Shown here: positions 7,604 through 55,166 of the stretch, piece by piece
Numbering within the stretch: position 1 is the stretch's first letter
Layout of the letters: every line of letters begins with the position of its first letter
NCBI GenBank assembly: GCA_017420755.1
Contig: JAFQOG010000028.1
Span: forward strand, 1-64,000
Source of the DNA: Clostridia bacterium
Lineage (GTDB): Bacteria > Bacillota > Clostridia > Oscillospirales > CAG-272
DNA: 64,000 nt
Direction: 5' to 3'
The notes under the pieces: generated by a model
What the model was told of the DNA's origin: nothing
Seen by the model: the letters and a program-made list of their open reading frames with translations, nothing else
Database searches by the model: none
Made by a program: the position numbers and the translations under genes

Positions 7604-9271
7604 ATGTACATTATTAAAAATGCAATAAGATGCATTCTAAGGTCAAAGGGAAGAAATATTTTAATTGGTATAATAGCCCTTGTAATTGCAATCTCCGCAT
7701 GTATAGGTCTATCGATTAGACAAGCGGCGGAAAGTGCCAAGGAATCGGCACTTGACGGAATGAGCGTAACGGCAACTATTCAGTATGACCGCGCAAGTGC
7801 TATGGGAAACATGAGTGGAGGCAGACCCGGTAGTGGGGGAGGTTTCCCGGGCGGAGGCTTTGATACAAGTGATTTTGCAAGTATAATGGGCAGTAGCTCA
7901 TCTCTTACACTTGAGGAATATCAAAAATATGCAAGTGCCGAGAGCGTAGAGGACTTTTATTATACATTAACGTCATATTTTAACGGCTCGGAAAATTTTT
8001 CTCCCGTCAGTGATGAGGTTGAAAGTGAAGAGAGCGAGGAGGATAGTGAGGAGAAAAGCTCCGACGAATCGAGCGATTCGATTTTCGACGGATTTTTTGG
8101 TGGAATCGGCGGACTTGATTTTGGACGCGGTTTTTCGGGAGATTTTTCCGTTATCGGATATAGCAGTGATGCATCAATGACGGCTTTTGTAAGCGGTAAT
8201 GCGTCTATTGTAGAGGGTTCGATGTTTGAAGAGGGAACAAGCGAGCTTGTTTGTGTAATTTCCGAGGAACTCGCAATGTTCAATGGTCTTTCTGTAAACG
8301 ATACAATAACCGTTACCAACCCTTCTCTTGAAACTGAAACCTATACTCTAACGATTGTCGGCATTTATGAAAGCAGCGAAAACAATGATTTTTCAATGTC
8401 GCAATTTGGCACAAGTCAAGACCCGGCCAACCAAATATATATGAGTGCAAGCGCTCTAAACGTTATATTGGACGCTTCAAAGGATAACTCAACTACGGTA
8501 ACAGATGACAACGGAATGGAAAAGGAAAGTGAAATTACATCTACGCTTTCGGCGATTTATTCCTTTGCAAATGCAGACGATTACTACGCGTTTGAGGAAG
8601 AGGTGCGTGCTCTCGGTCTTGATGATTCTTATAAAGTATCTTCATCTGACATTTCAGCGTTTGAAAGCAGCATAGCGCCTCTTAATACCTTGAGCAAAAT
8701 AGCGGGTTGGTTTTTGATTGTAATTTTCATTATTGGCGGTATTATTCTTGTGGTTCTTAATATTTTCAACGTTCGAGAGCGGAAATACGAGGTTGGCGTT
8801 TTAACGGCTATGGGAATGAAAAAATGGAAGGTTGCTACGCAATTTATGTGTGAAATCTTGATTGTTACTATGATAGCCGTTGTAATAGGCGCCGGCATAG
8901 GTGCAGTTAGCTCCGTTCCCGTAACAAACGCCTTGCTTGAGGGACAGGTGGAGAGCCAAACGAGTCAACAGGCACAAATGGAAGATGGTTTTGGACGTCC
9001 TAGCAATGTAGGTGGATTTGGTGGAATGGGAGGCGTCCCATCAGATATGCCGTCTGATATGCCTAGTGACATAGGCGGCGGAAAAAAACCGTTTGGCGGA
9101 ATGATAGGTGGTGCAACTAATTACATTACTGAGGTGAATTCCGCTATGAATTTGACGGTTGTATTTCAAATGATAGGGGTAGGACTCTTGCTTACGCTTA
9201 TTGCAAGCTTGGCATCGGTGCTCTTTATTATGCGATATGATCCATTGAAAATTCTTGCTAACAGAGATTAA
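7604..9271 (+). CDS. ABC transporter permease, MacB/FtsX type, with Gly/Met-rich loops
   Basis: A 555-residue membrane protein. It has one N-terminal helix (about 18-42), a large external domain and three C-terminal helices (about 363-388, 417-438, 523-545) with the FtsX-type motif RERKYEVGVLTAMGM. This is the MacB/FtsX fold, which usually exports peptides or lipoproteins, or senses antimicrobial peptides. Two low-complexity insertions face outward: a Gly-rich stretch around residues 67-95 and a Gly/Pro/Met-rich stretch with three PSDM/PSDI repeats around 458-505. A Ser/Glu-rich segment lies near 142-165. GGAGG precedes the start, and the ATPase gene follows by 17 nt. Confidence 0.85.
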   Translation: MYIIKNAIRCILRSKGRNILIGIIALVIAISACIGLSIRQAAESAKESALDGMSVTATIQYDRASAMGNMSGGRPGSGGGFPGGGFDTSDFASIMGSSSSLTLEEYQKYASAESVEDFYYTLTSYFNGSENFSPVSDEVESEESEEDSEEKSSDESSDSIFDGFFGGIGGLDFGRGFSGDFSVIGYSSDASMTAFVSGNASIVEGSMFEEGTSELVCVISEELAMFNGLSVNDTITVTNPSLETETYTLTIVGIYESSENNDFSMSQFGTSQDPANQIYMSASALNVILDASKDNSTTVTDDNGMEKESEITSTLSAIYSFANADDYYAFEEEVRALGLDDSYKVSSSDISAFESSIAPLNTLSKIAGWFLIVIFIIGGIILVVLNIFNVRERKYEVGVLTAMGMKKWKVATQFMCEILIVTMIAVVIGAGIGAVSSVPVTNALLEGQVESQTSQQAQMEDGFGRPSNVGGFGGMGGVPSDMPSDMPSDIGGGKKPFGGMIGGATNYITEVNSAMNLTVVFQMIGVGLLLTLIASLASVLFIMRYDPLKILANRD

Positions 9272-9946: not shown

Positions 9947-11308
9947 ATGAAAAAAATACAAAAAATATTGCTTTTAGTGCTAATGCTTGCATTTGTAATT
10001 CTTTTGTCATCTTGTCGCTCAAAAGAAGCCGTAAGCTTAACAGATGCCAAAATTAATGAAAGCGGAGAGCTTGTACTGCATTACAGTGACGGCAAGGAGC
10101 AAAATTTGGGCGTCGTTGTCGGAAAGGATGGCACCGACGGAAAGGACGGCGCAGACGGAAAGGACGGCGCAGACGGAAAGGACGGCGAAACGGTATCAAG
10201 CGAATCAATCGTTATAAACGGCGAAGACAGTGAGGCTTCATTAGCAAGCGCGAAGGCGCTTAGAAGCTCGGTAAGTATAGTCAGCAATTTCCAAACCAGC
10301 GTATATCAGGGCGGCTGGTATCCCGGAGGCGGTCAAACAACCACCAGGGATTATACCGCAAGCGGTTCGGGCGTAATCTATAAAATGGATAAGGCGGAGG
10401 GCGATGCCTTCATTATTACGAATTATCACGTTGTTTACGATGCAAGCAGCAACACCGAGAACGGAATAAGCAACAATATAGACGTATATTTATACGGCTC
10501 GGAAATAGAGGAAAAGGCAATAGACGCCACCTATGTTGGCGGCTCGCTTTACTACGATATTGCCGTTCTTCGCGTTGAAAACAGTGAGATATTAAAGGAG
10601 TCAAGCGCTTGTGAGGTGAGCGTTTTTGATTCCAATAACGTCGTTGTCGGAGACAGTGCAATAGCAATTGGTAATGCTCAAGGCTACGGGGTGTCTGTAT
10701 CCCTAGGAATAGTCAGCGTTGATTCCGAATATATAACAATGATTTCGGCAGACGGAAAGACAGAGGTATCGTTCCGAGTTATGCGCGTGGACGCCGCTGT
10801 CAACTCAGGCAACAGCGGAGGTGGACTCTTTAACGGCAACGGCGATTTAATAGGCATAGTAAATGCCAAAATTGTGTATGACGGCGTAGAAAATATAGGG
10901 TATGCGATTCCTTCAAAAGTTGCCGTATCAATTGCCGAAAACATAATTGATTATTGTTACGGAACTGATGAGGAAAGGGTGCAAAGAGCTTTGCTCGGAA
11001 TAACCATAGGCGCAACGGATTCAAAGGCTGTTTATGATACGGAAACGGGCAAAATCAAAATAGAGGAAACGGTTTCCGTGTATGAGGTCGCGGAAGGCTC
11101 GCTGGCAAAGGGCATGCTTCAAACCGGTGACGTTCTTCTTTCTGCGACACTAAACGGAGAAACAGTAGATATTTCCCGTCAGTATCACGTTATAGATATG
11201 ATGCTTGACGTAAGAGCAGGGGACACGATAACGTTTTCAGTCCTCCGAAACGATGAAGAAAAAACAATAACGATTGTCATAACCGAGGAATGCTTAACGG
11301 AGTATTAA
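9947..11308 (+). CDS. S1C (HtrA/Deg-type) serine protease lipoprotein with collagen-like repeats
   Basis: A 453-residue protein with a lipoprotein signal (hydrophobic segment 8-20, lipobox LLSSC). It carries eight G-X-Y triplets (GKD/GTD/GAD units, about residues 59-82), a trypsin-like domain and a C-terminal PDZ-like domain. The catalytic triad is H161 (NYHVV), D204 (YYDIAVL) and S290 in NSGNSGG. It should be anchored on the outer face of the membrane. Its ATG is 1 nt after the ATPase stop, which implies translational coupling. Short collagen-like spacers are uncommon in HtrA-type proteases. It may process what the ABC transporter exports, or act in envelope quality control. Confidence 0.85.
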   Translation: MKKIQKILLLVLMLAFVILLSSCRSKEAVSLTDAKINESGELVLHYSDGKEQNLGVVVGKDGTDGKDGADGKDGADGKDGETVSSESIVINGEDSEASLASAKALRSSVSIVSNFQTSVYQGGWYPGGGQTTTRDYTASGSGVIYKMDKAEGDAFIITNYHVVYDASSNTENGISNNIDVYLYGSEIEEKAIDATYVGGSLYYDIAVLRVENSEILKESSACEVSVFDSNNVVVGDSAIAIGNAQGYGVSVSLGIVSVDSEYITMISADGKTEVSFRVMRVDAAVNSGNSGGGLFNGNGDLIGIVNAKIVYDGVENIGYAIPSKVAVSIAENIIDYCYGTDEERVQRALLGITIGATDSKAVYDTETGKIKIEETVSVYEVAEGSLAKGMLQTGDVLLSATLNGETVDISRQYHVIDMMLDVRAGDTITFSVLRNDEEKTITIVITEECLTEY

Positions 11309-14124: not shown

Positions 14125-14157
14125 AAAAAAGACCGATTTAAAATCGGTCTTTTTTTA
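14125..14157. terminator. Bidirectional terminator
   Basis: aaagaccgattt/aaatcggtctttt with A and T tracts on either side lies between the convergent DUF6062 and pseudouridine synthase genes. Confidence 0.85.
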
Positions 14158-15069
14158 ATTTATTTTCTCTAATTTTTCAATCAATTTTTTGAAATTGTCT
14201 GGCAGCTCACACTCAAATGTAACAACTTCCCGTGTCTTAGGATGAGGGAAGGAAAGCACCTTTGCGTGCAATATCTGTCCGTCAAGGAGAGAGGAATTAG
14301 CCCTTTCAAAATTCGTTTTTCCTCCGCCATAAACAGTATCGCCGATTATTGGATGACCAATATGACTCATATGGACTCTGATTTGGTGGGTTCTGCCGGT
14401 TTCAAGCACCATCTTGGCATAAGTAAACGATGGATATTCACAAATCACCTCATAGTGGGTAATTGCCTCCTTGCCACCCTTCACAACAGCCATTTTCTTT
14501 CTGTCAACTGGGTGACGGGCGATGGGTGCGTTTACTGTACCACTATTTTCCTTTAAATGACCAGTAACAATAGCGTGATAAACTCGTTTTATGCCGTGAT
14601 CCTTCAAGAGCGAGGAAAGAAAAACGTGAGCCTCGTCATTCTTTGCCACAACCAAAAGACCACTTGTGTCCTTATCGATTCTATGAACAATTCCTGGGCG
14701 AATAACACCGTTAATGCCAGATAGGGAGTCCTTGCAATGATAGAGAAGTGCGTTTACAAGAGTGCCGCTTTCGTTCCCGTTTGCAGGGTGCACAACCATG
14801 CCAGATGGCTTGTTGATTACTATTATATCGTCATCCTCGTAAACTATATTTAGAGGAATGTTTTCCGGCTCGACCTCAAGCTCCTTTGGCTCTGGCTCGT
14901 CGATTAAAATTTCATCGTCTTGGCGCAAGCGGTAATTTTTTGCCTCGACCTTGCCATTAACTGTAACACAGCCAGACTCAATTAAAATTTGAGCAGATGA
15001 GCGAGTGATTTGAAGCGACTCTGAAACGTATAAATCAAGGCGCTTTTTTACGTCGTCTTGGGAAATCAT
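14155..15069 (-). CDS. rluD: RluA/RluD-family 23S rRNA pseudouridine synthase
   Basis: A 304-residue enzyme with an N-terminal S4 RNA-binding domain (about 9-60) and a pseudouridine synthase domain. The motif GIVHRIDKDTSG contains the catalytic Asp (D132). It isomerises specific uridines in large-subunit rRNA. The start overlaps the lspA stop as ATGA, the same gene order as lspA-ylyB in Bacillus. It is the last gene of the queA operon. Confidence 0.92.
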   Translation of the reverse strand: MISQDDVKKRLDLYVSESLQITRSSAQILIESGCVTVNGKVEAKNYRLRQDDEILIDEPEPKELEVEPENIPLNIVYEDDDIIVINKPSGMVVHPANGNESGTLVNALLYHCKDSLSGINGVIRPGIVHRIDKDTSGLLVVAKNDEAHVFLSSLLKDHGIKRVYHAIVTGHLKENSGTVNAPIARHPVDRKKMAVVKGGKEAITHYEVICEYPSFTYAKMVLETGRTHQIRVHMSHIGHPIIGDTVYGGGKTNFERANSSLLDGQILHAKVLSFPHPKTREVVTFECELPDNFKKLIEKLEKIN

Positions 15070-15683
15070 TTTTCTTCCTCGCCTTCTGATTTTTCTCCCA
15101 TTTCCTTGTCGCCTTCGATTTGTGGTGGCTCGATGCTTGCGTTTTCATTCATTGATCCACCTTGTGTAACGCTTTCTTCCGCTTTCTTTTTCTTTATTCC
15201 CTCCGTTACAATAATATCGTAAAGTAGAGTGGTTATGGTTAGAGCCGCACCAATACAAACAAATGAGTCGGCAACATTAAATATGGCATCCCAAATTCCA
15301 TAGAAGTCAAACATATCAATAACCTCGCCGTGGAATAGATTTTCGCCATAGAAAATACGGTCAATCATATTTGAAAAGCCACCAGCGAAGATAAAGGAAA
15401 GTCCAAGCTTAGTCAGTAATTTGTCCTTTGAGAATGCAAAAAGATAAACGGCGATTGCGATAAGCGCGATAGGTGAAATAACCATAAACACCCATCTTTG
15501 TCCGTCACCATCGAAAAGGCTAAAGGACATACCTGGGTTTGTGATATATTTCAGACGGAAAAAGCCGTTTATTATTTCAATTTCCTGACCCAAATCCATT
15601 AGATTGACAACCAAAGCCTTCGAGATTTGGTCAACAACCACAATTGAAGCCATCACGGAAATAAGTATAATATTCAGTATCAT
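15066..15683 (-). CDS. lspA: Lipoprotein signal peptidase (signal peptidase II) with long acidic tail
   Basis: A 205-residue LspA with four membrane helices and the catalytic aspartates D108 (GGFSNMIDRI) and D139 (FNVADSF). It cleaves the signal of prolipoproteins after lipidation; this window alone encodes at least four lipobox proteins that need it. The C-terminal 45 residues are an unusual hydrophilic Glu-rich tail absent from most LspA proteins, which are usually 150-170 residues long. AGGAG precedes the start. Confidence 0.93.
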   Translation of the reverse strand: MILNIILISVMASIVVVDQISKALVVNLMDLGQEIEIINGFFRLKYITNPGMSFSLFDGDGQRWVFMVISPIALIAIAVYLFAFSKDKLLTKLGLSFIFAGGFSNMIDRIFYGENLFHGEVIDMFDFYGIWDAIFNVADSFVCIGAALTITTLLYDIIVTEGIKKKKAEESVTQGGSMNENASIEPPQIEGDKEMGEKSEGEEEK

Positions 15684-15691
15684 TTTTTCTC

Positions 15692-15961
15692 CTATACATA
15701 AAAGGTAAGCAATGAGCTCACCAATTCCAAAAGCAAGTAGAATGCTAAAAATGAAAGGTCAAGAGGGAATCGGCGCACCCAGCTTATGTTGTTTAGTAGG
15801 TTTCTTATAGGCACAAGCGGCGGCTCGGTTATTGCAAAAATAAATCTATAAAAGCCGGTTTCACGTACAGGCGGAATCCACGAGCAAATTGCGCGTATAA
15901 GCATGAGCAGTTGATAAGCGGAAATTAAGGAAATTAAAATCCACGCAATATAGGTAATCAT
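15692..15961 (-). CDS. YggT/YlmG family membrane protein
   Basis: An 89-residue protein with two hydrophobic helices and the YggT-type central segment RAICSWIPP, followed by PLVPIRNLL. In Gram-positives this gene sits next to sepF in the division-linked ylm cluster, as here. It is thought to help membrane or division organisation, but no reaction is known. The ribosome site is weak, so translation may depend on upstream coupling. Confidence 0.85.
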   Translation of the reverse strand: MITYIAWILISLISAYQLLMLIRAICSWIPPVRETGFYRFIFAITEPPLVPIRNLLNNISWVRRFPLDLSFLAFYLLLELVSSLLTFYV

Positions 15962-16377: not shown

Positions 16378-17973
16378 TTATTTCCTTTCTCCAAATATTT
16401 TGCTTCCAACCCGAACAAGAGTAGCACCTGCCCTGATTGCGTATTCATAGCTTTCGCTCATTCCCATTGATAGTATAGCAGTCGGGTCATTTCCAAAAAG
16501 CTCGTCAAAAAGCTTTTTAGTTAATCCAAAATAAGTCATATATTCTTCACCAGAGCATTTTGGTGCCATTGTCATAAGGCCACGCACACGTACGTTTTCG
16601 AGCCTTGAAAGCTCTTTATAAAAGGCGGGAACATCCTCTGGCATAATTCCACCCTTGTTTTCCTCGCGTCCACTGTTGACCTCAATCAAAACATCCATTG
16701 TTTTGCCAATTTTCTTCGCTCTTTTGTCAATCTCCTCGGCTAAGGGAATTGAGTCGAGCGAGTGGATAAGGCAGACCTTATCAATTATATATTTAACCTT
16801 GTTTTTTTGCAGAGTGCCAATAAAGTGAAGCTCTGCGCGTTTATCATAAAAGTCATACTTTTCAACAAGCTCGTTGACACGGTTTTCGCCGATAATTTTA
16901 ACGCCACAGCCAATAAGATAATTTATATCCTCGGGTGCTTGTGTTTTTGTTGCAGCAAGCAAGGAAACCCTGCCATCTTTATCGAGCTCATCAATTTTTG
17001 ATTTGACAGCTTGATAGCTTTCTTTGATTTTGTTAAAACGGTCATCCATTGGATTTTTACCCTCTATAATATCGCAAGCGCACTTAAATGGGTCGCATAA
17101 GTCAATGAAAATCTTGTGATAGCCATCGTGCCCACCGAACCAGGTCAACTGACGCTTTGCGTAGTGACGTGTCGCTTTTTTTAATTCATCTATACAAAAT
17201 TCAAGTGAGGCATTACCCTCAAAATACGGAATAAATTCTTTATACCCAATTGCACCAAACGAGGTGTATTCCTCTTTTAAAAAGCCGCTGTCATAAAGAC
17301 GCTTAGCTTCATCTAAAAGTCCTTCCTTTAGCATAAGGTCAACACGGCTTTCGATTCGTTCATACAAAAGCTCACGGTCCTTTGCACACAAGAAAAAGAC
17401 AGTCGAATCATAAGGGGAAGCAGCCTCCCTTGACTCCTTATCAAGCTCGCTTTTTGTTTTGCCCGTTGCTTTGTAAATTTCCAAAGCGCGAATAACCCTT
17501 TTAATGTTGTTTTTGTGTATGGCATCAGCACTTTCTGGGTCAATTTCTCTTAGCATATTGTGAAGGTAATCAGCACCCTCAGAGCTTGCTATTTTTTCAA
17601 GCTGAGCGCGATACTCGTCATCCCTTGCCGTTTCGGAAAATGAGGGCATTTTCAAAACACTGTCGAGGTATAGCCCTGTGCCACCACAGAAAATCGGAGT
17701 CTTTCCTCTTTTTATTATATCATCTATTGTATTTTTTGCAAGTATTTGATAGTCTGCGCACGAAAAATTTTCGTTTGGGTTTCTAATATCAATTAAGTGG
17801 TGGGGAACAGAGAAAAGCTCATCCCTTGTGGGTTTTGCTGTTCCTATATCCATTCCACGGTAAATTTGCATAGAATCAACGGAGATAATTTCGCCATTAT
17901 ATTTCTTTGCTAATTTGATTGCGAGCGCTGTTTTGCCAACTGCGGTAGGCCCAACTATTGCAAAAACCTTCAT
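16378..17973 (-). CDS. miaA-yggS: Fused MiaA (tRNA dimethylallyltransferase) and YggS (PLP-binding) protein
   Basis: One open frame of 531 codons joins two normally separate proteins. Residues 1 to about 305 are complete MiaA: P-loop GPTAVGKT, the SVDSMQIYRGMDIGTAKP motif, then HHLID and TGLYL. MiaA prenylates A37 of tRNAs reading UNN codons. Residues 309-531 are complete YggS/YlmE, a PLP-binding homeostasis protein, with K343 in AATKTQ, IIGENRVNE, HFIGTLQKNK and GMSESYEYAI. Met309 (17047-17049) is preceded by AGAGGGT 9 nt upstream, so a separate YggS may also be made from an internal start. Either a true fusion or a lost stop codon would explain it. Confidence 0.85.
   Translation of the reverse strand: MKVFAIVGPTAVGKTALAIKLAKKYNGEIISVDSMQIYRGMDIGTAKPTRDELFSVPHHLIDIRNPNENFSCADYQILAKNTIDDIIKRGKTPIFCGGTGLYLDSVLKMPSFSETARDDEYRAQLEKIASSEGADYLHNMLREIDPESADAIHKNNIKRVIRALEIYKATGKTKSELDKESREAASPYDSTVFFLCAKDRELLYERIESRVDLMLKEGLLDEAKRLYDSGFLKEEYTSFGAIGYKEFIPYFEGNASLEFCIDELKKATRHYAKRQLTWFGGHDGYHKIFIDLCDPFKCACDIIEGKNPMDDRFNKIKESYQAVKSKIDELDKDGRVSLLAATKTQAPEDINYLIGCGVKIIGENRVNELVEKYDFYDKRAELHFIGTLQKNKVKYIIDKVCLIHSLDSIPLAEEIDKRAKKIGKTMDVLIEVNSGREENKGGIMPEDVPAFYKELSRLENVRVRGLMTMAPKCSGEEYMTYFGLTKKLFDELFGNDPTAILSMGMSESYEYAIRAGATLVRVGSKIFGERK
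17047..17065 (-). promoter_or_regulatory. Internal ribosome binding site and start within miaA-yggS
   Basis: AGAGGGT (17059-17065) lies 9 nt before the in-frame ATG (17047-17049), exactly where a stand-alone YggS protein would begin. Confidence 0.6.
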
Positions 17974-17994: not shown

Positions 17995-19077
17995 TTATTC
18001 TATCAGCATAGCATCGCCAAACGAGAAAAATCTGTATTTTTCGTCAACAGCAGTTTTGTATGCCTCCATGATTTTTTCCTTGCCACGCAACGCACTAACA
18101 AGCATAAGAAGTGTGCTTTCTGGCAAATGGAAGTTTGTAATTAGTGTGTCAACAGCCTTGAATTTGTAACCTGGGTAGATAAAAATTCCGGTGTTGTCAC
18201 TCGTTTCTAAAATTTTACCATTTTCGTCACTCGCACTTTCAAGTGTTCGACACGAGGTTGTTCCAACGGCGATAATCCTACCGCCCTTCGCCCTTCTTTC
18301 GTTTATAATGTCGGCACTTTCCTTTGATACGGAAATATATTCGGCGTGCATAATATGATCGGTTATTTTATCAGCCTTAACAGGTCTGAATGTGCCAAGC
18401 CCAACGTGTAGCATAACAGGAACAACAGCCACACCCTTTTCCTTGATTTTGTCAAGAAGCTCAGGGGTGAAGTGAAGTCCGGCTGTTGGTGCTGCCGCAC
18501 TTCCGTTTTCACGCGCGTAAACCGTTTGATATCTTTCTTGGTCCTCAAGCTTTTCAGTGATGTAAGGGGGCAAGGGCATAGAGCCGATTTTTTCAAGCAC
18601 CTCGAAAATATTCGAATATATACTTTCATCATATTCGAACTTAACAATTCTGTTTCCGTCCTCAATAACATCTAAAACAGTAGCAACAAGTGTTTTTTCA
18701 AACTTGATTTTTCCGCCGATTTTTATTTTTTTAGCGGGGCGCAAAAGCACCTCCCACTCGTTGTTTTTGAGCTGCTTTAATAGAAGCGTTTCAATTTTTG
18801 ACGGAGCCGAAACAAAGCCCTCACCATCACGCACCTTCTCACCCCAAATTCTTGCAGGGATAACACGAGAATCATTAATAACAAGGGTGTCCTCTGGATT
18901 TAAATAGTCGATAATATCATAAAAGTGCTTGTGCTCAATTTCGCCATCTTTTTTAATGACTAAAAGGCGCGAGGAATCGCGAGGGGTAACTGGCGTTTGC
19001 GCAATTAGCTCCTTCGGTAATTCATAATAAAAATCGCTGGTTTTTAGCTCGGTTTCGGGTAGGCTGTTTTTAATCAT
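17995..19077 (-). CDS. queA: S-adenosylmethionine:tRNA ribosyltransferase-isomerase
   Basis: A 360-residue QueA, which transfers and rearranges the ribosyl group of SAM to make epoxyqueuosine in tRNA. Hallmarks are [48 protein letters not shown] and TSCRTLES. It is about 15 residues longer than usual, mainly at the N-terminus; a shorter start is possible but has no better ribosome site. It is the first gene of the operon and lies 21 nt before miaA-yggS. Both are tRNA-modification genes. Confidence 0.94.
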
Positions 19078-45116: not shown

Positions 45117-48100
45117 ATGAAAAGGAAACTAACACTTGTTGTATGTGTTATCGCTCTTTTCGCATTGATTTTCACACTCGCTTCATGTGGCGAAAATGAA
45201 AATGACGACAAGAATCATACACATACATATGCGCAAGAATGGACTTCTACTGCAGCAGGACACTGGTATGCAAGTACCTGTGGATGTGCTGGAGTATCGT
45301 CTAATTATGGCGCACACGTTGACAAGGACGAAAATGGCGTTTGTGACACATGTGCTTATCAAATTTGTGGTCACAAATTCGAATCAACCTGGGAAAAAGA
45401 CGAAGACAATCACTGGAAAAACTCAACCTGCGGCTGTAAGGTCGTAGCAGAGAAGGGTGCACACGTTGATGCTGACAAGAACGGCAAATGTGACACATGT
45501 GAATACGTTGTATGTTCACACCAATATGCAACTGTATTGTCAAGCGATGCAAAAAGTCACTGGTACGCAGCTACCTGTGGATGTAACGTTAAAAAAGACG
45601 AAGCAGCACACGTTGACACAGTTCGTGATGGCAAATGTGACGTATGTGAATACGTTATTTGCGCACACGTTGACCAAAAGGGTGGCGTAAACGGTGGCAA
45701 GGACGGCCTTTGCGATGACTGTGAGGCTGTTGTTTGTGCACACACCTATGCAGAAACATGGTCAAAAGACGGCGCATATCACTGGTACGCAGCTACCTGT
45801 GGATGTGATGTAGTTGACAAAAAGGCGGCACACGTTGACGCTGACAAGAACGGTATTTGCGATGACTGTGAGGCTGTTGTTTGTGCACACACCTATGCAG
45901 AAACATGGTCAAAAGACGGCGCATATCACTGGTACGCAGCTACCTGTGGATGTAATGTAGTTGACAAAAAGGCAGCACACGTTGACGAGGACAAGGACGG
46001 CATTTGTGATGTATGTGATGCAGAGGTATGCAAGCATACATATTCAGATGAAAAGACATGGGATAACGAGGGTCACTGGTATCCTGCAACATGTGGATGC
46101 GATGTGAAGAAGGACTATGAGGCACACGCATGGGCTACTGAGATTTCAAAGAACGAGCTTGGTCACTGGTATGTAGCTACCTGTGGTTGTGAAGCAACAA
46201 AGGATTTTGCAGCTCACGATGATACTGTATTTGATGGTATTTGTGATGTTTGTACATATGTAATTTGTGCACATCCAGATGTAAACAAGGACGGTATTTG
46301 TGATGATTGCGAATATGTTGTTTGCACACACGAGTTCGACAACGAAACATGGTCAAGCAATGAAAAGACACACTGGCATCCAGCAACCTGCGGATGTGTT
46401 GTAAGAGGCGATGAGGCTTCTCACAGCGAGGATGAGGTTTGCTCAGTTTGTGGACGTTCATTTGAAACCAAGAATGCAATCGGAAACCTCGATAGCGAGG
46501 CTTATCTTGACGTTAACTCTGCAGTTATTATAGAAAATGCAGGACAAGAATACGAAGAGGAAAACTCATATAAGGTATATGATAACTACGTAGTAGTTAA
46601 GGATACCTTTGGCAACACAAGATACTTCTCATTCTATGGTGAAAACGATAATCTTCTATTCGTTGTTCTCGTAGATGAGTATGCAAGCGTAGTAAGAGAC
46701 TTTGACACAGAGGACGTTCAAACTCTTGTAGACATTATTAATTATTCAGCTGTATACTACAATGTAATAGCTAAAAATAATGAAGACTTTATCAAGGGTC
46801 TTTACGACCTCGGTGCAAACGGCGCATTTGACTGGGAAGGCAACCAAATTGGCGTTAGCTACGGCTTTACTGGTAAATCAAACGATGGCGTTTACACATT
46901 CTCATACCTCTACGTTGAAGGCGAATATGTTTTCGAGGTAAAGGGTGAATTCACTGTTGATGCTGATGTAAACGGCATTAAGACAGCAAGCGTTTCAATA
47001 AGTCAATATGACGCAACAGATGTAACAGTAGATGAAGCAACTGATACATACGTAATTAACGAAGGCGCAGAAGCAATTTCTTCTGAGACCTACGACATTG
47101 CACAAACATTTGGTGCAGCTATGGATTCTACAAGCAATCCTAACCCATATAAGGCATCTGACTATATTGTAGATGACTATAAAGTTACTGTAGATGGCGA
47201 AACAATCAACGATGGTGACACAATCAATATTGAAGCAGGCGACGAGCTTGTATTCGAATTTGGTTCAGATGTGGCTGACGTAATTAAGTTCAACGAAATT
47301 ACAGTATCAGCTACTGACAGCGAAGGCGAAGAGCTTCCAGAGTGGAGTGGCCCAGCAGGTTCTATTGGTGTTGATAGATATAATGATTTAAGACCTATCA
47401 CAATGGTTGCAAACATGGAGAATGTATATACAGTTGTTATCAGCGTTGAAGGAATTGAAACAGAAATTACTGTTAACGTTACATACAAGACACCAACAGA
47501 AATTTACTCTGTTGTTTACGATTCATTCAACGACGAAAATGTAACAACAAACACTTGGGAAATGTATTTTGGTCAAGAATTGACTATTAAGGCAACAGTT
47601 CCTACAGGATGTGCTCCTACATATACAGCAGTTCTTGGGGCAAACAATGCAGCAGCTCTAAATCTTAACGAAGATGGCACATATACATTCAAGCCAGTTA
47701 TGGTTGGTGATTTTGAAATCATCTTCAAATCAACAATTGATGAAACTGTAACAACAGTTCTTAATGTAACTGTTGTAAACCCACCAGCTATCAGCGATAT
47801 TCTTAACGGAACAGTTGAAGCTGAATATTTTGAATATATGACATGGACAGAGGGAACCATGACAATTGTGTTCACCCCTGCTTCCGAGGGCGCAACTGAA
47901 GGCACCTTGACAATTACAAACGTTGGATTTGATAATATGTCTTCAGCTGAATTTAACAAGAGTTCAACATATTCATATAAGTACAACGAAGAAACAAATG
48001 CAATTGAGCTCACATATGTAAGTGGCGAAGAAATTGAAATAGAGCTTTCAATTAACAACTACTTAGTTTGTGGACTTTATAAGTGGGAAAACCTTGTATT

Positions 48101-50960
48101 TGAGGTAGCTGAGGAGGAAGAGCCAGAAGACCCAGTACTTCCAGAAGGCCCAACAACAAGCCCATTTAATGTAACAACAACAGATAACTACCTATTGGAC
48201 ATTGAGGAATGGGATAAGTTTACATTTGTTGCTGGTGCAGCAGGTAACTACACATTCTATGTTCCTTACGAAATGGTAGATGGCGAATTCAGCAATAAGG
48301 TTGGTCTTGCAGTTGTAGGAGACAGCTCTCCTCGTATTGATTACCAAGGCCTACAAGGTGACAACTCTGCTACAATTTACTTGACAGAGGGTCAAGTAAT
48401 CGAGCTTGCTTTCTGTGGTCCAACAAAGGGTACATTTGAAATCACATTTGAGTATGCAGCAGCAGAGGCTCCAGAAGAGCCAACAGTTGAGCCAGGTCTT
48501 GCTGGCACATATGTAGCTGACAACGGCTATGGAACAACATTTGATGTTGTTATCACAGAAGATACAATCACATTCACACGTCCAATGTCCGCAGAGACTG
48601 TTTGGACATATGAGGTTGATAACGGTATCGTTACACTTTATTTAAATGGCGAAGCAATCACAAATCCTATGGTCGGTTCAGCAACAATAGACACTGTAAA
48701 CAATGTGTTTGCAGCTATGAGCTGTGACGGATGGGATTACACACTTACAAAGAAACCAGCTTCCATCGATGAGGAGGAAGGCATTGCTGGTACATATACA
48801 GCGACAGGTCCTATCGAAATGACTGTTGTAATTGACGACACAACAGTAACATTCAGCTATGTTCATCCAATGACCGGTATGACAATGAATGACCAATACG
48901 AGTACACAATCGTAGACGGTGTGGTAGTTCTTACACAAGCTGGTAATGAAGTAAATGCAATGATGGCAGCAATTACACTTACAGATGGTGTTCCAACAGC
49001 TGCAGTTTACAACGGCAACGACTTCACACTCGCACTTGCAGGTGGAGAAGAGGAAGAAACAGGCATTGCTGGTACATATACAGCGACAGGTCCTATTGAA
49101 ATGACTGTTGTAATTGACGACACAACAGTAACATTCAGCTATGTTCATCCAATGACCGGTATGACAATGAACGACCAATACGAATACACAATCGTAGACG
49201 GTGTGGTAGTTCTTACACAAGCAGGTAATGAAGTAAATGCAATGATGGCAGCAATTACACTTACAGACGGTGTTCCAACAGCTGCAGTTTACAACGGCAA
49301 CGACTTTACATTAACACTTGGCGGTGGATCAGGTGGTGACGAGCCTGAAATTCCTGATGAGCCAACAACAGGAACAGAGGAAAACCCAACTGTTTGGGAC
49401 GAAATTCCTTCCGAGGTTACAATCAACTCCGACACAATAAACAAGACATACTTCACATTCACAGCAACACAAACAGGCACACTTACAATTACTTACCCAA
49501 CAGCAGATTCATGGGCTGACCTCTTTGAAATTATCGACGGTGCAGTAAACGGTCAAAACTCACAAAGCGGTTATGAAACACTTACGGTTGAGTTCGTAAT
49601 TGAAGCAGGTAAGACATACCGCCTTGGTATTGGTACATGGTGGAATGCAGGCGAATTTACACTTCCAATTTCATTCACTGAGGGTGAAATTGGCGGTGGC
49701 GACGAGCCGGAAGAGCCAGCAGGCAATGTTCTTGTAATTGGTGAAAACACAGTAACCATTACAGAGTCTGACGCTGAGCAAGGCGGCTTAATGTTTACAT
49801 TTACAACATTCTATGCAGGTCAATACTCCTTTGTAAGCAATGATGTTGGTGCAAGAGTATTTGATGGCGAAGAAGTAGTTGGCTTTGGTCAGGTAGAGCT
49901 TGAGGCAAATAAGACATACAATGTATTTGTATTAGCTGCTGAGGCTGGCACATATGATCTTGAAATCGTGTTCACAGAGGTTGGTGGCGACGAGCCAACT
50001 GAAGGTACAATGGACAACCCAATTCTTTGGGAAGAAATCCCTTCAGAGGTAACTATTACTTCTAACACAACGGATTATACATACTTCAAGTTCACAGCAA
50101 CAGAGTCAGGTGCTCTTATCATTACATTCCCAGATGGTGAATCATATACTACACTTTATGCTGTTGTTGACGGAGAAATCGACTACGAAACATCACAATC
50201 CTCAAGCATGAAAAACAGAGCTCAATTCGCTATCGAAGAAGGCAAGACATACTTGTTAGGACTTGCAACATTCTGGACATCAGGTGAGTTCACAATTCCT
50301 CTTGAGGTTGGTGAGCTTACAGCAGATGGTTCACAAGATTATCCATTCGCAGGTGAATTTGATACCGATTACGTAGCTAACTTCCAAGGCGGCTACACAG
50401 GTCTTTACTACACATTTGTAGCACCTAATAACGGTTACGTAACAGTAACGTCCACATATGAGGGAACTCCTTGGCTCCAAATCGGAACAGATATCGATGA
50501 CTTGACAAACAATGTTGTAGGCATGGATCCTGAAACCTACGAAAACATATACGCAAACACAGTTAAGATGTACGTATTTGCAGGTCAAACCGTATACGTT
50601 GCAGTAGGCGACGGCACATTTGAAGCAGGTGAGGTTCCATTCAAGGTAACATTTGAAGCATTTGAGTCTGAATCAAGCGAAAAGGTTGCAGGCACATGGA
50701 CCGGAGAGGTTGATAACTGGGGTTCAATCACAACCTACACAGTAGTTATCAATGCTGACGGTACAGGCTCAATTGACGAGAACTACGGCTGGGGCTCATC
50801 CGAATACACAATTACATTTATCCTTGTTGACGGTTCAAACGTAACAGTAACCGCAGAGGATGAATACGGCAATATATCTCGTTATGTATTCGTATACGAT
50901 GCAGATGCTGATACTCTTACCGGAACAGGCGATATTAACGCTGTATTCACAAAGGCATAA
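45117..50960 (+). CDS. Giant multi-domain lipoprotein with Cys/His repeats
   Basis: A 1947-residue lipoprotein (lipobox LASC, perfect AAGGAGGT site). Residues about 33-450 hold eight units built on HW-x2-[AS]TCGC, AxHxD and nine CxxC pairs, period near 49 residues. Next come beta-sandwich regions, a proline-rich linker (around 1000), and a diverged plus two near-identical 94-residue modules (48503-49315). Alternating beta domains resembling pre-peptidase C-terminal domains contain the related segments WDEIPSEVTI and WEEIPSEVTI. No catalytic motif or sortase signal is visible. It is likely a long surface adhesin or binding protein. It follows the VWA operon after 150 bp with only weak promoter candidates, so read-through is possible. 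Confidence 0.8.
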   Translation: MKRKLTLVVCVIALFALIFTLASCGENENDDKNHTHTYAQEWTSTAAGHWYASTCGCAGVSSNYGAHVDKDENGVCDTCAYQICGHKFESTWEKDEDNHWKNSTCGCKVVAEKGAHVDADKNGKCDTCEYVVCSHQYATVLSSDAKSHWYAATCGCNVKKDEAAHVDTVRDGKCDVCEYVICAHVDQKGGVNGGKDGLCDDCEAVVCAHTYAETWSKDGAYHWYAATCGCDVVDKKAAHVDADKNGICDDCEAVVCAHTYAETWSKDGAYHWYAATCGCNVVDKKAAHVDEDKDGICDVCDAEVCKHTYSDEKTWDNEGHWYPATCGCDVKKDYEAHAWATEISKNELGHWYVATCGCEATKDFAAHDDTVFDGICDVCTYVICAHPDVNKDGICDDCEYVVCTHEFDNETWSSNEKTHWHPATCGCVVRGDEASHSEDEVCSVCGRSFETKNAIGNLDSEAYLDVNSAVIIENAGQEYEEENSYKVYDNYVVVKDTFGNTRYFSFYGENDNLLFVVLVDEYASVVRDFDTEDVQTLVDIINYSAVYYNVIAKNNEDFIKGLYDLGANGAFDWEGNQIGVSYGFTGKSNDGVYTFSYLYVEGEYVFEVKGEFTVDADVNGIKTASVSISQYDATDVTVDEATDTYVINEGAEAISSETYDIAQTFGAAMDSTSNPNPYKASDYIVDDYKVTVDGETINDGDTINIEAGDELVFEFGSDVADVIKFNEITVSATDSEGEELPEWSGPAGSIGVDRYNDLRPITMVANMENVYTVVISVEGIETEITVNVTYKTPTEIYSVVYDSFNDENVTTNTWEMYFGQELTIKATVPTGCAPTYTAVLGANNAAALNLNEDGTYTFKPVMVGDFEIIFKSTIDETVTTVLNVTVVNPPAISDILNGTVEAEYFEYMTWTEGTMTIVFTPASEGATEGTLTITNVGFDNMSSAEFNKSSTYSYKYNEETNAIELTYVSGEEIEIELSINNYLVCGLYKWENLVFEVAEEEEPEDPVLPEGPTTSPFNVTTTDNYLLDIEEWDKFTFVAGAAGNYTFYVPYEMVDGEFSNKVGLAVVGDSSPRIDYQGLQGDNSATIYLTEGQVIELAFCGPTKGTFEITFEYAAAEAPEEPTVEPGLAGTYVADNGYGTTFDVVITEDTITFTRPMSAETVWTYEVDNGIVTLYLNGEAITNPMVGSATIDTVNNVFAAMSCDGWDYTLTKKPASIDEEEGIAGTYTATGPIEMTVVIDDTTVTFSYVHPMTGMTMNDQYEYTIVDGVVVLTQAGNEVNAMMAAITLTDGVPTAAVYNGNDFTLALAGGEEEETGIAGTYTATGPIEMTVVIDDTTVTFSYVHPMTGMTMNDQYEYTIVDGVVVLTQAGNEVNAMMAAITLTDGVPTAAVYNGNDFTLTLGGGSGGDEPEIPDEPTTGTEENPTVWDEIPSEVTINSDTINKTYFTFTATQTGTLTITYPTADSWADLFEIIDGAVNGQNSQSGYETLTVEFVIEAGKTYRLGIGTWWNAGEFTLPISFTEGEIGGGDEPEEPAGNVLVIGENTVTITESDAEQGGLMFTFTTFYAGQYSFVSNDVGARVFDGEEVVGFGQVELEANKTYNVFVLAAEAGTYDLEIVFTEVGGDEPTEGTMDNPILWEEIPSEVTITSNTTDYTYFKFTATESGALIITFPDGESYTTLYAVVDGEIDYETSQSSSMKNRAQFAIEEGKTYLLGLATFWTSGEFTIPLEVGELTADGSQDYPFAGEFDTDYVANFQGGYTGLYYTFVAPNNGYVTVTSTYEGTPWLQIGTDIDDLTNNVVGMDPETYENIYANTVKMYVFAGQTVYVAVGDGTFEAGEVPFKVTFEAFESESSEKVAGTWTGEVDNWGSITTYTVVINADGTGSIDENYGWGSSEYTITFILVDGSNVTVTAEDEYGNISRYVFVYDADADTLTGTGDINAVFTKA
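45720..46013 (+). repeat. 147-bp tandem repeat inside the giant lipoprotein gene
   Basis: The unit starting tgtgaggctgttgtttgtgc at 45720 recurs at 45867, a 147-bp (49-codon) period, nearly identical over the Cys/His module. Flanking modules are diverged copies of the same unit. Confidence 0.85.
48781..49315 (+). repeat. 282-bp tandem repeat inside the giant lipoprotein gene
   Basis: Two almost identical copies start at 48781 and 49063 (282-bp period, 94 codons), encoding a beta-rich module with TATGPIEMTVVIDDTTV. Only a few synonymous-looking changes separate them, pointing to recent duplication or conversion. Confidence 0.88.
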
Positions 50961-53836: not shown

Positions 53837-55024
53837 TTATTTTGAATATTCAAAGGTTTTAACTGAAACCGTTAGTTCTCTATAGCTTCTAACAATTTTA
53901 AAGCTGATGGTTTCGCCAACCTTTGTATTGTAAATAGCGTCTGAAAGGCTTTGAACAGTGATGTTTGTTGAATATACTGCTTCACCAGGAAGCTTAATTC
54001 CAACAATTATGTCGCCTGCCTTGAGGTCGGAATCCTCAGGAGCTGAAACAACCTGAATGTTGCCTTGACGTGTGGTTTTAACCTGAATACCGATTGTTGG
54101 TCTGCCAGTAACATAGCCATAATCTCTTAAATCGGAGTAAACATCCATTGCGTCATCATAAGGAATAGCAAATCCGATGCCCTCAGCATTTTCGCCAACA
54201 ACCTTTGCGTTAACAATACCGATAAGCTCACCGTTTCTATTGAAAAGACCGCCACCTGAGTTGCCGGGGTTAACAGTAGCATCTATTTGTAATAGATTCA
54301 TTTCAACACCGGAGATTCTAAGATTTGTATCAATCGCACTTAGGTATCCGTTTGTTACAGTATTATCAAGTACACCAAGAGGGTAGCCGATAACGATAAT
54401 TTCTTCACCAACAAAGAGCTTGTTTTCCTCATTTGCCCAAGTAGCACAGGTAAGCTCCCTTTGATTTTCAACGATTTGAAGAACTGCAATATCGCTTCTT
54501 GAATCAATTCCAGAAAGAATTGATTTATACTCTGTTCCATCGTTTAATGTCACGATAGATGAGGATTGCATATTTGCGTTTTCAACAACGTGTGCGTTTG
54601 TAATTATATAGTAGCCCTTTTGGTTGTTTGAGTTTGTGAATTTTCCAACAATAACTCCGCTACCGGATCCACTTGAATTTTCAATCTCAACAACGCTGTC
54701 CTTTATTCTTGCAATTACAGCAACTCGGGATGCAGGATCATTAAGCAAAGCAAGATTTGATTCATTGTCTGTTGAAACGTATGAAATGGTATTATTCACC
54801 TGTGGCTTGCTTTGTGGTGCAAGATCCTCATCAAGCGATGTAGAAAGGAAATTTAATAAGCAACCAAAAAGAAATATAATAGCGGAAACAAGTGCCAACA
54901 CAATGCAAACAACGAGCATAGGAGAAGCACCACGTTTTTTTGTGGTTGTTCCGTACACAACATTTAAATTTTCATTATCGTCATTATTATTTTCATCGAA
55001 ATTGTTGTAAATATAATTTGACAT
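53837..55024 (-). CDS. Membrane-anchored HtrA/DegP-type serine protease
   Basis: A 395-residue S1C protease with an Asn/Asp-rich cytoplasmic N-terminus (1-25), one membrane helix (about 36-60), a trypsin-like domain and a C-terminal PDZ domain (about 305-390). Its triad is H145 (TNAHVV), D178 (SRSDIAVL) and S256 in NPGNSGGG. It degrades misfolded envelope proteins outside the membrane. The start ATG 55024 follows AGAGGT; a longer form has no ribosome site. It lies behind the repeat-rich region next to the two-component operon, which may control it, although this is only positional. Confidence 0.93.
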   Translation of the reverse strand: MSNYIYNNFDENNNDDNENLNVVYGTTTKKRGASPMLVVCIVLALVSAIIFLFGCLLNFLSTSLDEDLAPQSKPQVNNTISYVSTDNESNLALLNDPASRVAVIARIKDSVVEIENSSGSGSGVIVGKFTNSNNQKGYYIITNAHVVENANMQSSSIVTLNDGTEYKSILSGIDSRSDIAVLQIVENQRELTCATWANEENKLFVGEEIIVIGYPLGVLDNTVTNGYLSAIDTNLRISGVEMNLLQIDATVNPGNSGGGLFNRNGELIGIVNAKVVGENAEGIGFAIPYDDAMDVYSDLRDYGYVTGRPTIGIQVKTTRQGNIQVVSAPEDSDLKAGDIIVGIKLPGEAVYSTNITVQSLSDAIYNTKVGETISFKIVRSYRELTVSVKTFEYSK

Positions 55025-55166
55025 TATTACCTCTTTGCCAATTTTTATTGGCTTTTTAGCAAAAAAATTCAAAAAATTATTTTGTTTACGATATTATTTT
55101 ACTATGCCAATGTGAAAATTGTATGAAGATGGGCAAAAAAATAATTGAAAAAACGGCAAAATAATC

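Follow-up and report, generated by a model that had tools for sequence, protein, structure and literature searches.

The window analysed here, a stretch of 64,000 nt from the genome of a Clostridia bacterium, carries on its minus strand a gene in which a complete MiaA tRNA prenyltransferase runs without a stop codon into a complete YggS/YlmE PLP-binding protein. From comparison with related genomes, we consider it very likely that this is a genuine, conserved fusion that is read through as one bifunctional chain of ~60 kDa, with free YggS as a minor product at most. The gene is a single open frame of 531 codons counted from its ATG (531 aa). The first-pass annotation of this DNA, which gave no strand, had proposed the joining of two complete proteins in one stop-free frame, and this was borne out by profile searches. 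The whole-protein scores exceeded the curated thresholds of both families, with 322.8 bits against a cut-off of 148.65 for NCBIfam miaA (TIGR00174) and 166.2 bits against 106.25 for the YggS family (TIGR00044). The TIGR00174 alignment paired fusion residues 5–282 with model positions 3–277 of 288. Pfam assigned IPPT to the MiaA half and Ala_racemase_N, the B6 fold, to the YggS half, and the solved structures closest in sequence were of MiaA type for the first half (2qgn among them) and of YggS type for the second (6kzw among them). The coordinates of the gene, its landmarks and its neighbours are collected in Table 1.

Table 1. The miaA::yggS fusion gene, its landmarks and its neighbours in the window
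Feature	Position	Strand	Basis
queA, upstream neighbour, 21 nt from the fusion	17995..19077	-	profile matches
miaA::yggS fusion gene, 531 codons	16378..17973	-	same unbroken frame in 11/29 genus genomes (window's included)
MiaA domain, residues 5–282	17128..17961	-	TIGR00174 match; IPPT and IPT in Pfam
Presumed MiaA nucleotide-binding P-loop GPTAVGKT, residues 8–15	17929..17952	-	sequence; Lys14 in 11/11 fusions
Asp33 codon, aligns with E. coli MiaA Asp42	17875..17877	-	kept in 11/11 fusions
AGAGGGT, Shine-Dalgarno-like, 5' of codon 309; GAGGG to ATG 10 nt	17059..17065	-	
In-frame ATG at joint, codon 309, close to the former yggS start	17047..17049	-	
YggS/YlmE PLP-binding domain, residues 328–530	16384..16992	-	TIGR00044 match; solved relatives 6kzw, 5nlc, 1w8g by sequence
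Lys343 codon, aligns with E. coli YggS Lys36 (PLP lysine)	16945..16947	-	kept in 11/11 fusions; role from the available text of PMC11602438
Lys440 codon, aligns with E. coli YggS Lys137 (RNA-binding lysine)	16654..16656	-	kept in 11/11 fusions; role from the available text of PMC11602438
sepF, begins 2 nt past the fusion stop codon	15986..16375	-	profile matches
yggT/ylmG-like gene	15692..15961	-	profile match
lspA (signal peptidase II)	15066..15683	-	profile matches
RluA-family pseudouridine synthase gene (rluD-like)	14155..15069	-	profile matches

The fusion and its five listed neighbours all lie on the minus strand. With queA upstream and sepF and yggT downstream, the gene sits within the ylm/sepF neighbourhood and upstream of sepF, as had been claimed for it, and its YggS half thereby occupies the place just before sepF and yggT that we take to be the expected position of ylmE. 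Elsewhere in the window, inspection by eye picked out a plus-strand ORF of 1947 residues (45117–50960) with His/Cys-rich unit repeats in its N-terminal part, which looks like a large surface protein, and, at 7604–9271, 9947–11308 and 53837–55072, one ORF resembling an ABC permease and two with the look of trypsin-like serine proteases of the HtrA/DegP kind.

A search of the genus with the fusion protein gave a match in all 29 genomes, which are assemblies and in many cases incomplete. In 11 of them (the window's own, G000, and G001, G004, G005, G008, G010, G012, G018, G022, G025 and G026) the match was full length, in one frame and free of stop codons; the other 18 carried two separate genes. 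The ten fused relatives, one genome per species, were 67–80% identical to the window fusion. Among the candidates spanning both domains in a contig scan, locus L032 (JAFVWS010000044.1, from the assembly of a sheep-colon Clostridia bacterium) was likewise fused, at 71% identity to the window; as the identities are equal, it probably belongs to the same species as G010. Five other candidates from the scan, L033–L035 (59–66%), L036 (41%) and L043 (54%), turned out to be separate adjacent genes. The window assembly (87% complete, 57 contigs) contained one match to the fusion protein and no separate second copy was found in it, so that no source of either function other than the fused protein was found there. 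In the same assembly rpoB had no match and gyrA matched only below the cut-off, and the absence of a gene from it therefore means little.

Five key active-site residues have been retained throughout the fusions. Equivalents of E. coli MiaA Lys23, Asp42 and Arg217 and of YggS Lys36 and Lys137 were present in all 11. We take Asp42 to be catalytic, and Lys23 and Arg217 presumably also serve MiaA function. Some other positions were not kept; for example, MiaA Thr24 is Ser in three of the 11 fusions, and YggS Lys38 is Gln in all of them. Positions whose assignment was a guess were left out of account. In the six fused pairs computed, which were hand-chosen, share members and mostly have high dS, dN/dS was about 0.06–0.11 in both halves, and both halves are thus under purifying selection in these pairs. 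The first half resembles MiaA (TIGR00174, PF01715) in keeping the P-loop lysine and the Asp42 and Arg217 equivalents, but differs from it in continuing into a second complete protein, whereas MiaA of the 18 unfused genus members ends at 304–312 residues. Similarly, the C-terminal half matches the YggS/YlmE/PipY/PLPBP family (COG0325, TIGR00044), with the Lys36 and Lys137 equivalents kept and with the position directly before sepF and yggT that is usual for ylmE. Members of that family are single-domain proteins in the available text of a 2022 review (PMC9605639), whereas here the domain is the second of a two-domain chain. The product thus contains a YggS domain and is not a standard YggS protein.

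We believe that ribosomes would read through the joint to give one protein of ~60 kDa, a size taken from its length, and that this bifunctional protein is most likely the main product. MiaA prenylates A37 of tRNAs decoding UNN codons (PMC9303304, available text), and the N-terminal half is predicted to do the same for UNN-reading tRNAs, while the C-terminal half would bind PLP and, in its PLP-free state, RNA such as tRNA. Joining the two would fix the activities at a 1:1 ratio and keep YggS beside the tRNA worked on by MiaA, and any free YggS made from the old internal start would be a minor extra product. The merger of the genes hints that MiaA and YggS work together. A considerable probability, somewhat short of an even chance, nevertheless attaches to a neutral accident within the operon, in which the joint gene has no consequence and the two domains, though on one chain, work independently. 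Other species of the genus manage with two separate genes, and the residues at the joint vary among the fusions, both of which are consistent with neutrality. The persistence of the fusion down to about 67% identity speaks against harm, but not against neutrality.

The unfused members of the genus suggest how the single frame arose. In 17 of the 18, miaA and yggS overlap by 4, 8, 17 or 20 nt, and in the remaining one they are separated by a 2-nt gap; yggS lies outside the miaA frame in all 18. The fused members, by contrast, lack the miaA stop and have yggS in frame with miaA. Small length changes at the overlap, judging from the junctions, would have brought yggS into the miaA frame. The overlapping layout of the unfused pairs is that expected for translational coupling, and it recalls coupled pairs such as pipX-pipY, for which short or absent spacing and an inferred coupling are described in the available text of PMC9605639. 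The present pair differs in that the partner of yggS is a tRNA enzyme and in that the pair became one frame in 11 of 29 genomes.

Outside the genus, the loci with both genes mostly had about 1–1.7 kb between the matches, and only a few (L036, L043 and L112–L115) were adjacent. The intervening gene was identified as HlyD_2 (PF12700) at all three loci scanned, and the profile was found between miaA and yggS in six of six outgroup genomes, in one of them only as weak pieces. Within the genus (g1), no HlyD_2 gene was found in 12 genomes by the same profile or in 29 by protein query. Among the other genera of the family that were sampled, most have an HlyD-like gene separating miaA from yggS, whereas in this genus the two adjoin. 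Three arrangements can accordingly be seen side by side: genes apart in the outgroups, overlapping in the relatives and fused in this branch. A second genus of the family, g82 (G109, G160, G203 and G242; loci L112–L115), also has miaA and yggS directly adjacent, and in G203 (L113) they share a reading frame that is interrupted by stops. In the distant relative at L036 (CADBWQ010000014.1, 3989–5638; 41% identity), only one stop codon parts the open frames of miaA and yggS, which are neighbours in a common frame, so that the layout comes close to that of the fusion.

Beyond the genus no further fusion came up among the matches listed at any depth sampled. None of 28 genomes outside the genus gave a full-length match. 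In a family sample of 196 genomes (4 of the genus; 191 with a match), none of the matches listed from outside the genus extended past residue 324. In an order sample of 394 genomes, in which the window's was the sole fused genome drawn, seven matched at E 1e-100 or better, the only level considered and one that a divergent fusion split into two rows may escape, and the match was full length only in the window genome. In a phylum sample of 159 genomes (157 with a YggS-family match), an open frame of >418 residues occurred, among the matches listed, only in the window genome. As far as sampled, the fusion therefore appears confined to a part of this uncultured genus. Other MiaA fusions, which long open frames at G039, G052, G109, G203 and G242 had suggested, were not upheld on inspection of the loci. 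The additional residues at L116 and L117 precede the MiaA match, and at L112–L114 the stop-to-stop frame is only 315–359 residues, the longer figure apparently reflecting read-through of stop codons by the search program. The open-access literature searched yielded no publication about a MiaA-YggS fusion, most subscription papers lying outside that search. The two families were already known; the domain architecture is real and is undescribed in the literature searched.

We examined whether the fusion arose once using a six-marker tree of 30 genomes, in which rpoB was present in 26, gyrA in 29, queA in 23, sepF in 29, yggT in 30 and lspA in 14, with G000 represented without rpoB and gyrA. The fused genomes fell into clade A (6 genomes) and clade B (5 genomes), each with 100% support, and the unfused clade C (4 genomes) was placed beside clade B with 80% support. 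This placement raises the tentative possibility, which we would put at about one in three, of two independent fusions in clades A and B, or of one fusion that was split again in clade C, instead of one simple origin. Trees of MiaA, of YggS and of the two joined also left the 11 fused rows ungrouped, with low support inside that part, and clade C has an 8-nt overlap that it shares with the distant pair G014/G028. On the other hand, the support of 80% for joining C to B is modest in this context, and a constraint tree uniting the 11 fused genomes cost 11.7 log units and was not rejected (AU p 0.242). The distance from the aligned ATG/GTG to the end of the NY motif was 12 residues in the nine fused rows keeping that codon, compared to 9–10 in all 18 unfused rows; for G010 and G012 the length of this leader was set by alignment. 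The 12-residue leader shared by both fused clades would favour a single origin, were the longer form new. It measured 13 in L120, the sole measurable outgroup row, and the longer leader of the fused clades may therefore be old and not newly shared.

The first-pass annotation had also proposed that the usual YggS start is still in place, with AGAGGGT at ideal distance, and that the cell could make both the fusion and free YggS. The ATG and the AGAGGGT are indeed present, but the spacing is not ideal, a gap of 10 nt between GAGGG and ATG being on the long side. Among the 11 fusions the codon at the joint is ATG in eight, including all five of clade B, GTG at the same codon in one (G004) and GTG one codon later in one (G010); G012 has neither, and its sole candidate is a weakly pairing TTG (–3.7) four codons further along. 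Taking these last two as the starts of G010 and G012, pairing with the 16S tail averaged –6.1 kcal/mol in the 11 fusions vs –3.0 at the remaining ATG/GTG sites of these genes, whatever their frame (nominal p 0.0002). The pairing was weaker than at the 18 unfused yggS starts (medians –6.3 vs –7.3, nominal p 0.017), these p-values treating related species as independent. Recoding the same amino acids with synonymous codons gave a mean of –5.5 (median p 0.37), and the window site itself, at –6.3 kcal/mol, was not stronger than recoding gives (p 0.31). Since the pairing does not exceed that of synonymous recoding, nothing indicates that a ribosome site has been selected for beyond what the protein sequence itself entails.

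These measurements bear on whether the internal start is actively kept, so that the fusion and substantial free YggS are both made. A start codon at the joint or beside it in 10 of the 11 fusions (ATG in eight, GTG in two), its pairing above that of other internal sites and its retention throughout clade B argue for such a dual-product gene, but we think it rather unlikely, as the pairing is weaker than in the unfused relatives and no better than synonymous expectation, the start has been lost in G012 and, with no ribosome stop at the joint, re-initiation coupling would be lost as well. An internal start giving a separate C-terminal product from a bacterial gene is described for RpnL/RpnS in the available text of PMC10327210. 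The fusion is like that case in having an in-frame start and a Shine-Dalgarno-like site inside a longer gene, and unlike it in that each half is a known protein in complete form and that selection beyond the amino acids is not evident at the internal site. We interpret the joint site most readily as what is left of the former overlapping start. A leftover site of this kind can still work, so that free YggS may be made, although the data do not need it.

An assembly or sequencing artefact, which the fragmented and incomplete state of the window genome (57 contigs, 87% complete) might suggest, has practically no probability left and can be regarded as refuted, as the same stop-free fusion is carried by ten further genomes, one per species. 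The lost stop codon that the first-pass annotation had raised as an alternative is excluded by the same ten species, and the homologue comparison across the joint that it had advised recovered the unbroken fusion throughout the fused genomes. A single-base difference from relatives that always have two genes is also ruled out, because the closest relatives are fused and yggS is in another frame in 18 of 18 unfused genomes.

The YggS/PLPBP family occurs in all kingdoms and is linked to human B6-dependent epilepsy; to our knowledge, its molecular role is unknown. In the available text of a 2024 paper (PMC11602438), E. coli and human members of the family bind RNA. For tRNA binding by E. coli YggS the apparent Kd is 5.1 μM, weakened to 23 μM by PLP, and no definite complex was obtained with the K36A and K137A variants (PMC11602438). 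Because YggS binds tRNA and PLP weakens this binding, its partnership with MiaA is suggestive. The fusion could be a PLP-sensing tRNA modifier, in which the YggS half would hold tRNA only when PLP-free and A37 prenylation and UNN decoding would follow the B6 state; we regard this as an improbable extension of the fusion reading. If it were true, MiaA and YggS would also cooperate where they are separate, and a ubiquitous B6 protein would gain a role in tRNA modification. A natural, conserved fusion to a tRNA enzyme provides independent, circumstantial evidence that tRNA may be a partner of YggS, and it offers a single protein for testing directly whether B6 state and tRNA modification are linked.
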